Virus record (IMG/VR): IMGVR_UViG_3300002835_001009
Location: 1-25,128 of that record
DNA: 25,128 nucleotides
Direction: 5' to 3' (one strand)
Source of the DNA: a virus
Within the stretch, counting starts at the first letter, position 1. Each line of letters opens with the position of its first letter. The position numbers and the translations under genes are program-made. This document shows positions 1,120 to 24,412 of this stretch, piece by piece. Below the pieces are notes generated by a model, which did no database searches, was not told where the DNA came from, and saw nothing but the letters and a program-made list of their open reading frames with translations.

Positions 1120-3483
1120 TTAGGCAATAATCTCTGCAAACTTGTTGAGGAATACGCGGGACAGCTTCTTCTCGCTGGTGAATTTGGTGAATTGCTTAGC
1201 AAGGCGGTTCTGAGAAGATGCATCAGAGAAGCTTTCACTAACAACACTGCTGACAAATTCCTCGTCATCATCGTTAATGTCCAATCCGTTTTTACTATCA
1301 AAAACAAAATATGCATCATAGTTATATCCGCCTAAAATCATCATGCACTTTTCTTTGCGTGCTTCACGACTTTTCTTTTGGAACAATTCATTGGCGCTGC
1401 GCCATGGCAAGATCTCGCCATCTTTCTTTGCGGTATAGCGCAATGCAGTGATTGCAGTGCTTTTGTAGTCGCTGCGGTAATTGGCAACAAAAAATCCAAT
1501 CACGGTGGTTCCACAGGTTATTCTGAGATTTTCAATCAGAGCGGCATACAATCCTTTATCATAGCTGCGGAACATAATGTTGCGGCCGTTTACTGGAATC
1601 ATGTTACCGCATTTCCATTCCGGAACGGTAGAAGCTTTACGGTATGTCTCATCGGCATTGTTGTAGTCAAAGTGAGCTTGGCATGCATCGCCATCAGTAA
1701 GGAAAATGGTATTCATCTTTTGTACATGATGGCGTGCCTTAAAGCGTTTCACAATTTCATGTGCAACAACAATTGTCTCGTTTAGGGGAGTGCCATTCAT
1801 TACCTCATACTTGTTATTGCTGAAAGGCATACTGCCGTTTCCACCATGGCTGTCGGCATGCAAATAAGCCTGAGCTTTAAGTTCTTTGCATGCCAATTCA
1901 AACTTGTCACGCTTCATGGTGCTGTTGACCAATTCAAAAATGTGAGTATAGCGAAATGCAATATTGCTGCCAAACTTAAGATTAGGATCTGTCTCATGCT
2001 TATAATTGACTGGGCTGGTGAAGCCGTAAACTTCAAACGGAATACCTACTGCTTTGCAGAAGTACACCAGTTGCAGAGTCTGAACAATCACGCGTCCAAT
2101 AGTATTGGACATGCTTCCAGAATAGTCGATGAAAAACACCATGCCATGGTTTTTAGCATCGGCCAGTTTGGTAATGCTACAGAAGATTTGATCTTCAAAC
2201 TTATAGGCATGCAGGCGGTTCACGTCAATTGTACCTGTAGTACTTTGCTGTGCTCGGCTATATTGGAATGCAGCTTTACGACGTTCAAATTCTTTGACCA
2301 ACACGCTGATGTGCTTTTTAGTTGCAGACTTAAAGTCTTTCCAATCTTCTTGAACACCCGCGGCTGACATAAGCGCCACATAGCTGGTGCAGCGATGGCG
2401 TTCAGCCATAATTTCCTCAACGGGAATTACACACTTCATCATTTCCGCGGCATTAGGAGCATTGCCAACAAGATAATCTGTAACAGTCTCTTGCATGTCA
2501 TGCAGTTGCTCACCAAATGATTGCATGGTCTTGCTGGTCAATTCATCTTGAGCATTGCCATAGCCCGGCATGTTGTCAGGCACACTTTCTCCTTCGCCAT
2601 CTTTATCAGCCTCGGCATTGCGGTCTTTCTTTTTAGAGTTTGCTTTTCTCTCATCGCTTTTGCCTTTTTTGTCTGAGGTTGAATCGGCCTTGTCAGAGGT
2701 TTTGCCGCCATCATCTTTGCTGTCACGATAAGTTTCTGTTCCGCCGTCTTTTTCATTGTCGGAATCTGATTGGTCTCCGTCGGTGCCATTCTCACCTTTA
2801 CCAGCGTCATCGCTTTTTTGTTTGCTTTCCTTGCCGCGAGGAGTGGTTGGAGAATTTTCATCGGGGGTGTCTGGAGTTTTAGTTTCCGCCTCCTCCTCCT
2901 CCTCCTCCTCACGCTTTTCGATGCTGACCATTTCATATACGGTCTTGCAAATATCAAGTACTTCATCATAAGTTTCTGCTGCGCGGCATCGTGCATATAC
3001 TGCTTCTTCAAGGTCATTCATTGGCACTTGCAGTTGAGTGCCAATTTTAGCGCGGATGTTTAAGCGGTCCGCAAAACCCAGTGTGCTCAAGTCAGTACCG
3101 TTAATTTTGAAAAAGTCTTTCTCAATAAAGTGTCGGTATCCTTCTTTGAAGCTATACACAAGGCCTGGGTAATTGTTCTGAATAAGCCGCTCAATGCGAA
3201 CATCTTCTACAATGTTGCCAATATCAAATGGAACTCCTGGGAGTGCTTCATGAAAGCGGGCGATTGCATCAGCTGGAGTATATAGCGCATGGCCAACTTC
3301 ATGGCCGACCAGCAGGTCACTTACTTGCTTATTGTCAGCATTCCACATGGGCAATCCCAATACACGTCGTTCGACATCAAAAAATGCAGTGCTGTAATTT
3401 CCAACACGAACATTAATGTTTTCTTTCGCTAGCAGCTTTGCTAGCATTTTCTGAGATTCGCGATTTACAGTGGCGGCTTGCAT
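1120..3483 (-). CDS. VWA-domain protein with N-terminal HEXXH metallopeptidase-like motif (CobT-like)
   Basis: A 787-residue protein. Residues 61-65 are HEVGH, the zinc-binding HEXXH of zincin peptidases, followed by NIVEDVRIE (91-99), which could supply the acidic third ligand. A highly charged, low-complexity linker (about 190-300) includes a poly-Glu run encoded by GAG repeats. The C-terminal half has a von Willebrand factor A domain with the MIDAS signature D454-x-S456-x-S458 (FFIDYSGSMS) and a later FLTDGDA strand. CobT-type VWA proteins share the acidic linker plus VWA layout and act with MoxR/CobS ATPases, and such an ATPase is encoded downstream. T4-like marine phages carry related proteins. 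The start is fixed by an early promoter whose -10 ends 6 bases before the ATG. Whether it is an active peptidase or a metal-binding adaptor cannot be decided here. Confidence 0.88.
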   Translation of the reverse strand: MQAATVNRESQKMLAKLLAKENINVRVGNYSTAFFDVERRVLGLPMWNADNKQVSDLLVGHEVGHALYTPADAIARFHEALPGVPFDIGNIVEDVRIERLIQNNYPGLVYSFKEGYRHFIEKDFFKINGTDLSTLGFADRLNIRAKIGTQLQVPMNDLEEAVYARCRAAETYDEVLDICKTVYEMVSIEKREEEEEEEAETKTPDTPDENSPTTPRGKESKQKSDDAGKGENGTDGDQSDSDNEKDGGTETYRDSKDDGGKTSDKADSTSDKKGKSDERKANSKKKDRNAEADKDGEGESVPDNMPGYGNAQDELTSKTMQSFGEQLHDMQETVTDYLVGNAPNAAEMMKCVIPVEEIMAERHRCTSYVALMSAAGVQEDWKDFKSATKKHISVLVKEFERRKAAFQYSRAQQSTTGTIDVNRLHAYKFEDQIFCSITKLADAKNHGMVFFIDYSGSMSNTIGRVIVQTLQLVYFCKAVGIPFEVYGFTSPVNYKHETDPNLKFGSNIAFRYTHIFELVNSTMKRDKFELACKELKAQAYLHADSHGGNGSMPFSNNKYEVMNGTPLNETIVVAHEIVKRFKARHHVQKMNTIFLTDGDACQAHFDYNNADETYRKASTVPEWKCGNMIPVNGRNIMFRSYDKGLYAALIENLRITCGTTVIGFFVANYRSDYKSTAITALRYTAKKDGEILPWRSANELFQKKSREARKEKCMMILGGYNYDAYFVFDSKNGLDINDDDEEFVSSVVSESFSDASSQNRLAKQFTKFTSEKKLSRVFLNKFAEIIA
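2889..2909 (-). repeat. Trinucleotide microsatellite (CCT)7 / (GAG)7
   Basis: Seven perfect CCT units on the plus strand are GAG on the coding strand and encode the poly-Glu run in the linker of the VWA protein. Repeat-number change would alter linker length by whole residues without breaking the frame. Confidence 0.9.
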
Positions 3484-18298: not shown

Positions 18299-19687
18299 TT
18301 ATAAGCCGCTCCATTCTCGGTTTTGCTCTAGGGCTTCTTCATAGTATTGAGAGCTTTCTGGAGCATCTGACACATAGTTGTTTATGATTCCAAACAGTGG
18401 AACGTCTTCGTCCATCTCTCGTATCTTTTCGCTATACAAGAGTTGCTTAAGATCAACATTACTTATACCGCCAAATGCATCAGTGCTAACAAACCATGAA
18501 AACATTACAAGATTCATTACCAAGTCATCGTGCGTACTTCCACGCGCCGCATAGCTGTCGCCCTTTGGCTCAAAGCTGCTAAGTTCTGAAATGGTGTCTA
18601 TATCACATACTTCCAGCTTACCGCTTTCAATCAAGTCTTTAAGATTACTACAGCCAATTCGTTTAACTCTTTTTGTCATTACCACGCCAATGCCGTTGCT
18701 TTTGACCGCACTTGATACAAACATATTATCATATTCATATTCATAGTATACAGCATTACAAACAACTTGTCCAGCATCATTATTTTCAATAACCACCATT
18801 GCATTGTTATATTGCTTGGCGGCACGCACTATCAATTCTGGATATATCAGTGGACTAATTAGATTATCACGATAAGTACACACCGTCTTGAATGGCATGG
18901 TGCTAACATCGAAAACTGTAAATGTACTATAGTCCTGCCCTCTCCCTTTGCAAACATCAACCGTCATGATATACTCATGCCCTTCAACCGGATCATCATA
19001 ATAGCGTATGCCATATTGGCGCTTGCTTGGCTCAACGCCTTTTAGACCTAGTAGTGCTTCACTGCTAATTAGAGTAGCGCTGCTGCCAATAAAGTTAACT
19101 TCAAATTCTTGGGCAAACTGCAATTCGCTGCTGTTAGCAATTGTTTGACGTTTCCATGCTTCATCCCGCCCAGGAACATCGCTCCATTTGATTGTGAATG
19201 GTTTAAATTCGCTTGTCTTTTGTACCGCGCCTTCCCACAAGCGATAAAACATATTGCCTACGCCATTAGGTGTACTTGTGATGATCACCTTGGTATCTTT
19301 ACCAGATGAAATAACAGGATAGGTACTTGTATAAAACTCATTTGCATTTTGCACGAACGCAAATTCGTCAAGAAAAATACAGTTATGACTAATTAATCCA
19401 TTTGTATAATATGCATGAGTATCTTTAACATTTAGCAAATCATAAACCGATTCATTTGCAATTTCATTTATACTTTCTATACAGATATTTGTGTAAAGTA
19501 CATCTCCAATTTGTAAAAATCTTGCAGGTATATATGTTTCACCATCATCCATTAAAAGTTCATGATCAGGCGTGCATTTGATACTCTTATCAGCAGTACA
19601 TGTAATATATAGAAGACTATCTGAAACACCCTTATTTAGTATTCCATCAAATTGCTTAAACCCTTTATGCGTTAATACCTCAATCAT
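18299..19687 (-). CDS. 17: gp17 terminase large subunit, C-terminal half preceded by C-intein
   Basis: A 462-residue protein made of two parts. Residues 1-102 are the C-terminal part of a split intein: a block B-like KCTPDHELL (Thr39, His42), then FLQIGDVL, a block F-like VYDLLNVKDTHAYYTNG (81-97) and the block G end LISHN (His101-Asn102). The +1 residue is Cys103. From there the terminase resumes with the Walker B CIFLDEFAF, STPNGVGN (motif III region) and the RNase H-like nuclease with TVDVCKGRGQD, VVIENND and HDDLVM, whose acidic residues match the metal-binding set of T4 gp17. The ATG overlaps the stop of the upstream half as ATGA. After trans-splicing with residues 1-170 of that half the terminase would be about 530 residues. 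Confidence 0.94.
   Translation of the reverse strand: MIEVLTHKGFKQFDGILNKGVSDSLLYITCTADKSIKCTPDHELLMDDGETYIPARFLQIGDVLYTNICIESINEIANESVYDLLNVKDTHAYYTNGLISHNCIFLDEFAFVQNANEFYTSTYPVISSGKDTKVIITSTPNGVGNMFYRLWEGAVQKTSEFKPFTIKWSDVPGRDEAWKRQTIANSSELQFAQEFEVNFIGSSATLISSEALLGLKGVEPSKRQYGIRYYDDPVEGHEYIMTVDVCKGRGQDYSTFTVFDVSTMPFKTVCTYRDNLISPLIYPELIVRAAKQYNNAMVVIENNDAGQVVCNAVYYEYEYDNMFVSSAVKSNGIGVVMTKRVKRIGCSNLKDLIESGKLEVCDIDTISELSSFEPKGDSYAARGSTHDDLVMNLVMFSWFVSTDAFGGISNVDLKQLLYSEKIREMDEDVPLFGIINNYVSDAPESSQYYEEALEQNREWSGL
19382..19687 (-). other. C-intein (102 residues) of the split TerL intein
   Basis: Carries the block B, F and G motifs and ends in His-Asn before a Cys +1 nucleophile, as needed for Asn cyclisation and transesterification in a class 1 intein. 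Its size (102) and order are close to the C-intein of the described AceL-TerL atypical split intein (about 104 residues). Block B being in this half shows that the split lies between blocks A and B. Confidence 0.9.
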
Positions 19688-20625
19688 TTCTTAGTTGTGT
19701 TAACCCATCCAGTTGGCGCTTCATGCGGAAAGTAATATCCTCTTTTGGATGCATCTGATGGATCGGTGAAGTATTTCTTACCTTTATTCTTAGCAATCAT
19801 TCCCTTTTTAGCAAGTGACATTTTATCTTTAGATTCTGCGCTACGTTTCATACCTCTGTGTTTTTCAGCAGTCTTACGTATCTTTTCTGGATTATGATTT
19901 ATTTTTGAAACGTGGTCTGCGCTCTTTTTCATACCAGTCAATGCCTTGCTAATCTTTTCGCCAAACCCATCTGGCTTTGGCATACCTTTTAATTTTTGCG
20001 ATACAATCCGGCCATTAGATTTTCTCGTTTCAGGTAAAGCTTCTATCATTTGGTTTCTTTTATGATAAAATTCTTCGGCTGCGGATTGAATACCAGGCAA
20101 TTCATACTGTATATTACCATTAGGATTGCCGCATTCATAAATTACTTTTACTCGCGCAGCGTGGGCATTGCAATCTTTAAGATAACCCAATTCATTTATT
20201 GCATCCTCTACGGTATGGAATATTCTTCCATCAGTGTGTGCTATTTTATAACCATTTCCAGTAGGCAGTCCGGTTTTTTGTTTACTTAATTTTTCACGAG
20301 TTTCTTTACTATGCGTCTTTCCGTAAAATCCATTATTTTCACCATGCAGTACACAAACGTTACCTCCAACTGATAGATTATAAGTGTCTTCTCTTAAAGT
20401 AAAGTCACGATCAACAATTCTTTTTTCTTCAGCCTCAGCTTCTTCTTTGGTATTGTATACAGCTAAGATTTCTTTATTAAATTGGTCAACCCCATACTTC
20501 TCAACAGCTCTTCTTATCAGTTTACCCGATCCCATATATCCATCATCTATGTTACACGTAGAATGATAACCTACATAGATTTTGCCATTAATTTTATTAG
20601 TGATTTTATAAACCGTATAATACAT
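19684..20625 (-). mobile_element. GIY-YIG homing endonuclease with NUMOD-type repeats, embedded in the terminase gene
   Basis: From Met205 of the upstream terminase half (ATG 20625-20623) to the TGA at 19684, 313 residues. The GIY-YIG core is YYTVYKITNKINGKIYVGYH, with GYMGSGKLIRRA supplying the conserved Arg and a Glu-rich helix (EAEAEEKRIVDR) supplying the Glu. Next come NUMOD3-like segments (HSKETREKLSKQKTG, GEKISKALTGMKKS, SAESKDKMSLAKKG) and a C-terminal YYFPHEAPTGWV end as in T4 Seg-type enzymes. A GAGGA sequence (20634-20630) four bases before this ATG could allow independent translation, unusual in a window where most genes lack such a site. It would spread the insertion by cutting intein-less terminase genes. 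Confidence 0.88.
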
Positions 20626-21237
20626 ATGTTCCTCGATGAGTTTACTTTTATTTATATAATCATCTATTTTAACATAGTAAATTGCATCATTTTCATATAT
20701 GCAAATTTTGGTATCACCTGTCACACAATTCATACTCAAGCCTCGAATGCTACTACCGCTAGTTGCCGCTGCAATAATTTGGCTGTTGTTGCTAAACTTG
20801 ATACTACCTTTGTTCAATACCTTACACCCAGGCTGCAGGAAGAATGGCAGGTTCTCCAACATTAGTGTAAGGCGGCTCAACATCTCACGTGCAGTTGCAC
20901 CTTTGTTGGCAAGTATACCAATAGTCTTGTCAGGATTAAAGATGACATAGTGAAGGAGCCATGCCACACTTGTTATACTTTTACCACTTTGACGACATGC
21001 TAATACTATATTGAAACGGTTATCACTAAAATGTTTTACCATATTTTCTTGATAACCACGCAGCTTAAAAGGAACAAGCCCATGATCCAAGTGAATAACC
21101 TTTACATACTGCTCACAAAAATAACCAACATCTGCCATGCAGCGCTGATATTCAACTATCTCATGAGCGGTAAAGTTTTGCTGCACACCATCGCCCTTCA
21201 CGTGTGGGTTGCCATTATAGTTAAGTCCAGAATTCAT
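19684..21237 (-). CDS. 17: gp17 terminase large subunit, N-terminal half fused to N-intein and GIY-YIG endonuclease
   Basis: A 517-residue protein started at MNSGLNYNGNP (ATG 21237-21235); a longer frame to 21270 would use a TTG start and is rejected. Residues 1-170 are the terminase ATPase N-terminal part with Walker A-type ACRQSGKS (80-87) and ending RGLSMN just before the Walker B. Cys171 begins an intein block A, CVTGDTKI. About 34 intein residues are followed in frame by a GIY-YIG endonuclease (205-~290) with NUMOD-type repeats to the stop. The remaining terminase sequence is in the next gene, in a different frame, overlapping by ATGA. A perfect TATAAATA late promoter lies upstream (21296-21303). 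The protein should splice in trans with the product of the next gene and shed the endonuclease part. Confidence 0.94.
   Translation of the reverse strand: MNSGLNYNGNPHVKGDGVQQNFTAHEIVEYQRCMADVGYFCEQYVKVIHLDHGLVPFKLRGYQENMVKHFSDNRFNIVLACRQSGKSITSVAWLLHYVIFNPDKTIGILANKGATAREMLSRLTLMLENLPFFLQPGCKVLNKGSIKFSNNSQIIAAATSGSSIRGLSMNCVTGDTKICIYENDAIYYVKIDDYINKSKLIEEHMYYTVYKITNKINGKIYVGYHSTCNIDDGYMGSGKLIRRAVEKYGVDQFNKEILAVYNTKEEAEAEEKRIVDRDFTLREDTYNLSVGGNVCVLHGENNGFYGKTHSKETREKLSKQKTGLPTGNGYKIAHTDGRIFHTVEDAINELGYLKDCNAHAARVKVIYECGNPNGNIQYELPGIQSAAEEFYHKRNQMIEALPETRKSNGRIVSQKLKGMPKPDGFGEKISKALTGMKKSADHVSKINHNPEKIRKTAEKHRGMKRSAESKDKMSLAKKGMIAKNKGKKYFTDPSDASKRGYYFPHEAPTGWVNTTKK
20626..20727 (-). other. N-intein (about 34 residues) of the split TerL intein
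   Basis: Starts at Cys171 of the upstream half (codon 20727-20725), with CVTGDTKI matching block A of class 1 inteins, then a short strand pair up to the endonuclease Met. The published AceL-TerL N-intein is about 25 residues and starts CVYGDT, so size and position agree. Its exact C-terminal limit is uncertain because the endonuclease continues in frame. Confidence 0.88.
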
Positions 21238-21295: not shown

Positions 21296-21303
21296 TATTT
21301 ATA
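21296..21303 (-). promoter_or_regulatory. Late promoter of gp17 (TATAAATA)
   Basis: Perfect late consensus 58 bases before the ATG at 21237. It overlaps the stop codon of an 11-codon mini reading frame at 21299-21334. Confidence 0.82.
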
Positions 21304-23620: not shown

Positions 23621-23628
23621 TATTTATA
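23621..23628 (-). promoter_or_regulatory. Late promoter of gp14 (TATAAATA), near-leaderless
   Basis: Perfect late consensus with six bases (ACTCCA) before the ATG at 23614. T4 late promoters initiate about six bases past the box, so the mRNA should have a leader of at most one or two bases. Confidence 0.85.
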
Positions 23629-24404: not shown

Positions 24405-24412
24405 TATTTATA
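24405..24412 (-). promoter_or_regulatory. Late promoter of gp13 (TATAAATA), near-leaderless
   Basis: Perfect late consensus with six bases (CAGTAT) before the ATG at 24398 and only two bases after the stop codon of the preceding gene. Confidence 0.85.

Follow-up and report, generated by a model that had tools for sequence, protein, structure and literature searches.

We analyzed the locus for the terminase large subunit (TerL, gp17) in the virus record IMGVR_UViG_3300002835_001009, from an uncultured T4-like phage, whose 25,128 bases are the window of this report; contigs compared with the window carry L-numbers (L003, L082, etc.). The locus lies on the minus strand and holds two open reading frames (ORFs). 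ORF1 (21237..19684) encodes, all in one frame, the N-terminal part of TerL, an N-intein, and a GIY-YIG/NUMOD3 endonuclease, and ORF2 (19687..18299) encodes a 102-amino-acid (aa) C-intein followed by the C-terminal part of TerL. A first-pass annotation made from the sequence alone had proposed that gp17 is encoded in two consecutive genes in different frames. These coordinates held, and the Pfam profile Terminase_6N is divided between the two genes, with positions 2-94 in ORF1 and 99-211 in ORF2. ORF1 also matched GIY-YIG, SegE, and NUMOD3, which bears out the endonuclease that had been placed between the halves, while ORF2 matched Terminase_6C, with Intein_splicing slightly below the cut-off. 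The features, in coding order, are as follows.

21296..21303, minus: T4-type late promoter -10 sequence TATAAATA, upstream of ORF1 (motif search)
20728..21237, minus: TerL N-extein, 170 aa, C-terminal RGLSMN at 20728 (Pfam, sequence; the intact relative L003 matches T4 gp17)
20977..21000, minus: Walker A, ACRQSGKS, within the N-extein (sequence, T4 gp17 alignment)
20626..20727, minus: N-intein, 34 aa before the endonuclease Met, with Cys1 and block A, CVTGDTKI... (split position as in Cat/AceL-type inteins)
20649..20656, minus: candidate T4-type late promoter -10 sequence TATAAATA inside N-intein codons 24-27 (motif search, relatives)
20625..20652, minus: putative operator, an inverted match (20/28) to the homing site on the 3' side of the insertion (sequence comparison)
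20630..20634, minus: Shine-Dalgarno-like GAGGA ahead of the internal ATG (sequence)
19684..20625, minus: GIY-YIG/NUMOD3 homing endonuclease, 313 aa from the internal ATG at 20625, continuous with the N-intein frame (Pfam, phrog_314; kept in relatives)
20413..20619, minus: GIY-YIG catalytic domain (PF01541, E=1.2e-5)
20284..20346, minus: NUMOD3 DNA-binding motif (PF07460, E=2.8e-8)
19684..19687, minus: ATGA overlap of ORF1 stop and ORF2 start, with presumed translational coupling (sequence; same in L082, L083, L084, L091, L092, and L098)
19382..19687, minus: C-intein, 102 aa, blocks B, F, and G, C-terminal LISHN (Pfam, CatC, VidaL and Cat folds)
19562..19573, minus: block B, TPDH (TxxH) (alignment)
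19379..19387, minus: C-terminal His-Asn plus Cys+1 (sequence, alignment)
18299..19381, minus: TerL C-extein, 360 aa plus stop, from CIFLDEFAF at 19381, with Walker B and an RNase H-like nuclease (Pfam, fold match)
19364..19378, minus: Walker B, IFLDE, aligned to MIYIDE of T4 gp17
19352..19379, minus: homing-site segment that the putative operator resembles in inverted form, given as coding strand (sequence comparison)

A terminase gene divided by an intein

The boundaries proposed in the first-pass annotation were both found. In ORF1, RGLSMN gives way to CVTGDTKI of block A at 20728/20727, and in ORF2 intein blocks B, F, and G end in SHN ahead of the Walker B segment CIFLDEFAF at 19382/19381. 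Alignment with T4 gp17 and the Pfam matches agreed with it in placing Walker A on one extein and Walker B plus the nuclease on the other. The same arrangement, with an insert of 1346-1349 nucleotides (nt), was present in a contig with 99.98% identity to the window and in contigs of other metagenomes with 97% and about 74-77% aa identity to it, so the split TerL is neither chance nor assembly error. A scan of genome contigs (bacterial or prophage source) found no relatives.

Two insert-free alleles, L003 and L004, have both exteins 93-98% identical to those of the window, and their join is exact, with no extein residues missing (RGLSMN/VIFLDEF in L003, where the slash marks the insertion point; RGRSMN in L004), which is the seamless junction expected earlier. 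The sole difference there between the empty allele and the window is Val to Cys at +1, where splicing needs a Cys. Cys occurs naturally at this position in intein-free TerLs, L029 among them, so the spliced product should be tolerated. The intact TerL of L003 aligns with T4 gp17 (3EZK, E=1e-102), which puts the insertion directly ahead of Walker B (MIYIDE in T4) and Walker A on the other half.

As judged by sequence comparison, every segment of the locus is under purifying selection, as in a working gene. The ratio of nonsynonymous to synonymous substitution (dN/dS, NG86) between the window and L082/L083 (97%) was 0.00-0.24 in every segment and 0.05 in the endonuclease. Cys1, TxxH, His-Asn, and Cys+1 are intact in the window and kept in relatives (block B of L084 reads TSDH), and a check of relatives for loss of catalytic residues found none lost. 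On the strength of the dN/dS values and these residues we rejected the reading of the gene as dead, an unspliced relic. It is very improbable: we found no point supporting it, there are no stops, the arrangement is conserved across divergent contigs, and TerL is essential, with no second copy seen in this record, which is a fragment. Removal of the insert as RNA, by a group I or other intron, is less probable still. Introns are generally known to house GIY-YIG endonucleases often, but intact intein code flanks the endonuclease on either side, and this candidate was rejected for want of any Rfam match down to E=0.1.

Atypically split TerL inteins are represented by AceL-TerL, GOS-TerL, and the Cat consensus (PMC13014065, PMC11766414; PDB 6dsl), and their N-inteins measure 15-37 aa (PMC13014065). 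With an N-intein of 34 aa and a C-intein of 102 aa, the window has the dimensions of this class, in which a short N-intein is paired with a C-intein of about 100 aa. The ORF2 C-intein matched CatC (phmmer, 6dsl_B) with E=3.4e-11. In AlphaFold models, with the intein halves folded separately, ORF2 superposed on VidaL (6vgv) with a root mean square deviation of 1.6 Å and on Cat (6dsl) with 2.6 Å, and also on gp17 nuclease structures (Foldseek); the TerL halves match T4 gp17. Mean pLDDT, the model confidence score, was 67-69, a moderate level that weighs against the assignment; the low confidence at ORF2 residues 103-166, the ATPase stub, is as expected of half a domain. By this comparative evidence the window carries a naturally and atypically split intein of the AceL/Cat family in an essential gene. 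The likeness to AceL-TerL drawn in the first-pass annotation therefore stands for the family but probably not for the insertion site, which is SMN/C, before Walker B, in the window. C-intein tails that appear to be AceL-like are found at EFE/CEFLGS in L265, L267, and L269.

We propose the following account, to which, together with the homing outlined below, we give a probability of roughly 0.8. Transcription from the upstream late promoter would cover ORF1 and ORF2, the ORF1 protein consisting of TerL-N, the 34-aa N-intein, and a GIY-YIG tail. Ribosomes ending ORF1 may restart at ATGA to make C-intein-TerL-C, since each ORF2 opens with an ATG at the conserved overlap. The intein halves would then associate and trans-splice to yield a complete gp17 that has the nuclease as well as the two Walker motifs, after which the N-intein-endonuclease would stay bound to the C-intein. 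We infer this coupling and the splicing from sequence, and trans-splicing of the gp17 halves appears very likely. The first step could also be a -1 frameshift at ATGA that produces a single TerL-intein-endonuclease-intein-TerL protein spliced in cis. Where the two ORFs overlap, ORF2 is indeed in the -1 frame, a run of A precedes the overlap in L084, and contiguous mini-inteins are known at the same site (L202-L207, L214, L233). A slippery sequence is, however, absent in the window, L091, and L092, and the ATG that opens each ORF2 fits restart better than frameshift. We regard the frameshift as improbable and favor restart followed by trans-splicing.

Candidate promoter and operator in the N-intein code

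The window holds eight copies of the T4 late -10 sequence, TATAAATA, every one on the coding strand, whereas 1.89 are expected over both strands; 0/100 shuffles reached 8. Seven copies stand shortly upstream of late-gene start codons, including those of gp17 and gp18. The eighth is within the N-intein code, 23 nt ahead of the ATG that opens the GIY-YIG domain, with GAGGA between. A copy at a similar place in the N-intein (offset 71-92) was found in 12/17 endonuclease-bearing lineages versus 0/7 lineages lacking the endonuclease (Fisher p=0.0046), and its chance given the amino acids and codon usage was 8.5e-6 as a product over six divergent lineages. The long RNA is predicted to be structured (z=-2.3) with its AUG partly paired and the short RNA to be unstructured, as an energy model only. 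Elsewhere in the window, TATAAATA at 24405-24412 and 23621-23628 stands 6 nt ahead of the next gene's ATG, so a nearly leaderless mRNA is possible there, and in L084 and L099 the sequence is also found upstream of Walker A endonucleases.

The product of the reading frame behind this ATG matched PF01541, PF07460, and PF19835 as well as phrog_314 (E=2e-41), and by these matches it is a GIY-YIG homing endonuclease with DNA-binding modules. The distribution of TATAAATA makes it likely that the N-intein code contains a T4-type late promoter serving the endonuclease. Because this promoter is followed by a Shine-Dalgarno sequence and an ATG, synthesis of the endonuclease as a separate protein, besides the ORF1 fusion, is probable. 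The earlier description of a fused endonuclease is right as to the continuous frame, but the protein is probably made separately as well. If it existed only as the C-terminal end of the ORF1 product, both TATAAATA and the operator match would be coincidences of the N-intein code. The ORF1-type frame is open in about 15 lineages, and the phage Thanatos-2 has a fused nuclease without TATAAATA, as that explanation would have it. Against it, TATAAATA follows the presence of the endonuclease, including in L227, which keeps it though its endonuclease is not in frame; the remaining seven window copies are all ahead of late genes; and the endonuclease has a gene of its own in two lineages, L099/L101 and L227. 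We consider exclusive production as a fusion unlikely and a second, separate product the better account.

From the promoter through to the ATG, the sequence agrees at 20/28 positions with the reverse complement of the homing site that adjoins the insertion on its 3' side (dinucleotide shuffles, p=0.002; synonymous resampling, p=0.058). The opposite strand of 20625-20652 encodes MFLDEFTFI, where TerL has IFLDEFAFV; a forward-orientation match between promoter and homing site was not found. A motif of LDEFA codons with free wobble bases and 0-1 mismatches was present in 13/18 endonuclease-bearing loci. In four of the 13 (L100, L125, L126, and L215) it is in another reading frame, which argues for a constraint on the mimic as DNA rather than as protein. 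The match in seven representatives combined gave p=1.5e-9 assuming independence, a condition not fully met. Several points weigh against a promoter and operator here. Independence of the lineages is incomplete; with the amino acids given, the window's own operator match is of borderline significance (synonymous resampling, p=0.025-0.064); and the Shine-Dalgarno sequence is strong only in the window clade.

We give about even odds, from sequence resemblance, to an operator that resembles the inverted Walker B homing site and overlaps the promoter. By analogy with I-TevI, this arrangement suggests that the endonuclease would repress its own promoter. We infer that internal initiation from this promoter would supply free endonuclease. 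The endonuclease would cut intein-free TerL near Walker B, whereupon recombination could copy the whole insert in. The mimic lies wholly 3' of the insertion; therefore, cleavage would have to fall 5' for the insert to protect its own allele. That the same 102 nt of N-intein code have a triple use, as splicing peptide, late promoter, and inverted homing-site operator, we propose tentatively, at slightly less than an even chance. If this is true, an I-TevI-like autoregulatory circuit would have evolved within split-intein coding sequence, and the endonuclease would have two sources, one as a by-product when TerL is spliced and one as a late protein of its own. The promoter also suggests that the endonuclease may follow the late program of its host phage. 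In L083 (8144-8200), a second split intein has TATAAATA within its N-intein and matches its own joined site in inverted orientation at 17/20 positions; against empty alleles the match is not significant.

Variants at the insertion site

The window site, or one two codons upstream (RGxS/CN), is occupied in many T4-like contigs. Contiguous mini-inteins of this site family are found in L202-L207, L214, L231, and L233, split inteins without an endonuclease in L228 and L229, and split inteins with a separate GIY-YIG gene in L099/L101 and L227. The GIY-YIG endonuclease is in the N-intein frame in about 15 IMG/VR lineages (the window, L084, L091, L092, L093, L096, L098, L100, L125/L215, L126, L208, L209, L212, L219, and L220). 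The in-frame fusion, which the first-pass annotation had thought possibly new, is thus real as to its frame and is a common arrangement at this site; we rejected its uniqueness, given these lineages and the plan of one cultured phage of another type, Thanatos-2. The endonuclease tree requires at least two switches between in-frame and separate. In L234 (2126-3709), the intein is contiguous and encloses a truncated remnant of GIY-YIG; it looks like a split intein that a deletion has rejoined.

Two positions only two codons apart in TerL, SMN/C in the window and RGxS/CN or CA in L093, L096, L098, L099, and L212, hold inteins that are related to each other, as are their endonucleases. TerL is broken at two or three sites in L083 (5974-9935), L084 (800-5315), and L099 (5362-8842). 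L083 has its second split intein at EFE/C, L084 has another at Walker A, and L099 is split at Walker A and again before Walker B and also holds a contiguous mini-intein. From these sequences, TerL in all three would have to be put together out of three polypeptides, with two split inteins doing the joining. In L092 (1764-4646, endonuclease at 2125-3018) and L209 (1200-4001, endonuclease at 1549-2391), the Walker A position has an endonuclease ORF of about 280-300 codons in a different frame from the TerL/intein reading frame that surrounds it and is open throughout; 0/2000 synonymous resamples of the endonuclease left the other frame open. Contiguous TerL ORFs hold two mini-inteins in L118 (1075-3213) and three in L233 (3200-5750).

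One site in an essential phage motor therefore shows many stages of intein evolution: contiguous mini-intein; split intein with an in-frame, a separate, or no endonuclease; and contiguous intein with an endonuclease remnant. The new split inteins with short N-inteins are offered for protein chemistry, and the relatives with a three-polypeptide TerL are natural cases of multi-part trans-splicing.

Comparison with known systems

Neither the atypical splitting of TerL inteins nor the fracture of genes by split inteins is new. The window shares with AceL, GOS, and Cat the TerL host gene, a short N-intein of 25-37 aa divided after the first helix, Cys1, TxxH, HN, and Cys+1, and its C-intein matches theirs in sequence and fold. 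It differs in that the endonuclease frame continues the N-intein and a probable internal late promoter is present. The literature search, which covered sources other than the text of Dassa 2009, found no description of a late promoter or operator in an N-intein or of a conserved in-frame endonuclease.

In 2009, Dassa and colleagues reportedly described "fractured genes", in which split inteins occur along with endonuclease genes that are free-standing. In the window, too, a split intein interrupts the gene and an endonuclease gene separates the two halves, but here the endonuclease ORF is in the N-intein frame and overlaps the C-intein start. In contrast to a free-standing gene, its frame continues the N-intein, yet a probable internal promoter, a Shine-Dalgarno sequence, and an ATG are present.

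Split TerL is also found in the cultured phages Shewanella Thanatos-2, Yersinia TG1, Salmonella pSe_SNUABM_01, and Pseudomonas PspYZU05. As in the window, gp17 is divided over two coding sequences (CDSs) that carry the intein halves, and an endonuclease lies between them or is fused, but the insertion is after Walker B (IDE/C) and the nuclease is another one. Thanatos-2 has the same in-frame plan at another TerL site, with a TnsA-like nuclease (Pfam) unrelated to GIY-YIG. In the cultured phages L113, L114, L116, and L119, TATAAATA is absent inside the split TerL; these records are annotated with two "terminase large subunit" CDSs and a hypothetical or endonuclease CDS between. Campylobacter NCTC12673 (L115, 3992-5326) has an unannotated C-intein-TerL-C ORF.

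The closest parallel for the putative regulation is I-TevI of the T4 td intron, whose operator is 15/20 identical to its homing site and overlaps a late promoter (PMC2988022). In both, a GIY-YIG nuclease has its own late promoter inside the element, or a candidate for one in the window, overlapped by a homing-site-like sequence. Regulation of the I-TevI type also has the start region concealed in the long transcript and accessible in the late one, to which the predicted pairing of the AUG in the long RNA and the lack of structure in the short RNA may correspond. The window element is, however, a split intein, so that its promoter and putative operator would lie within the protein-coding N-intein. 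As far as we searched, this would link split inteins to a promoter/operator logic found otherwise only in T4 introns.

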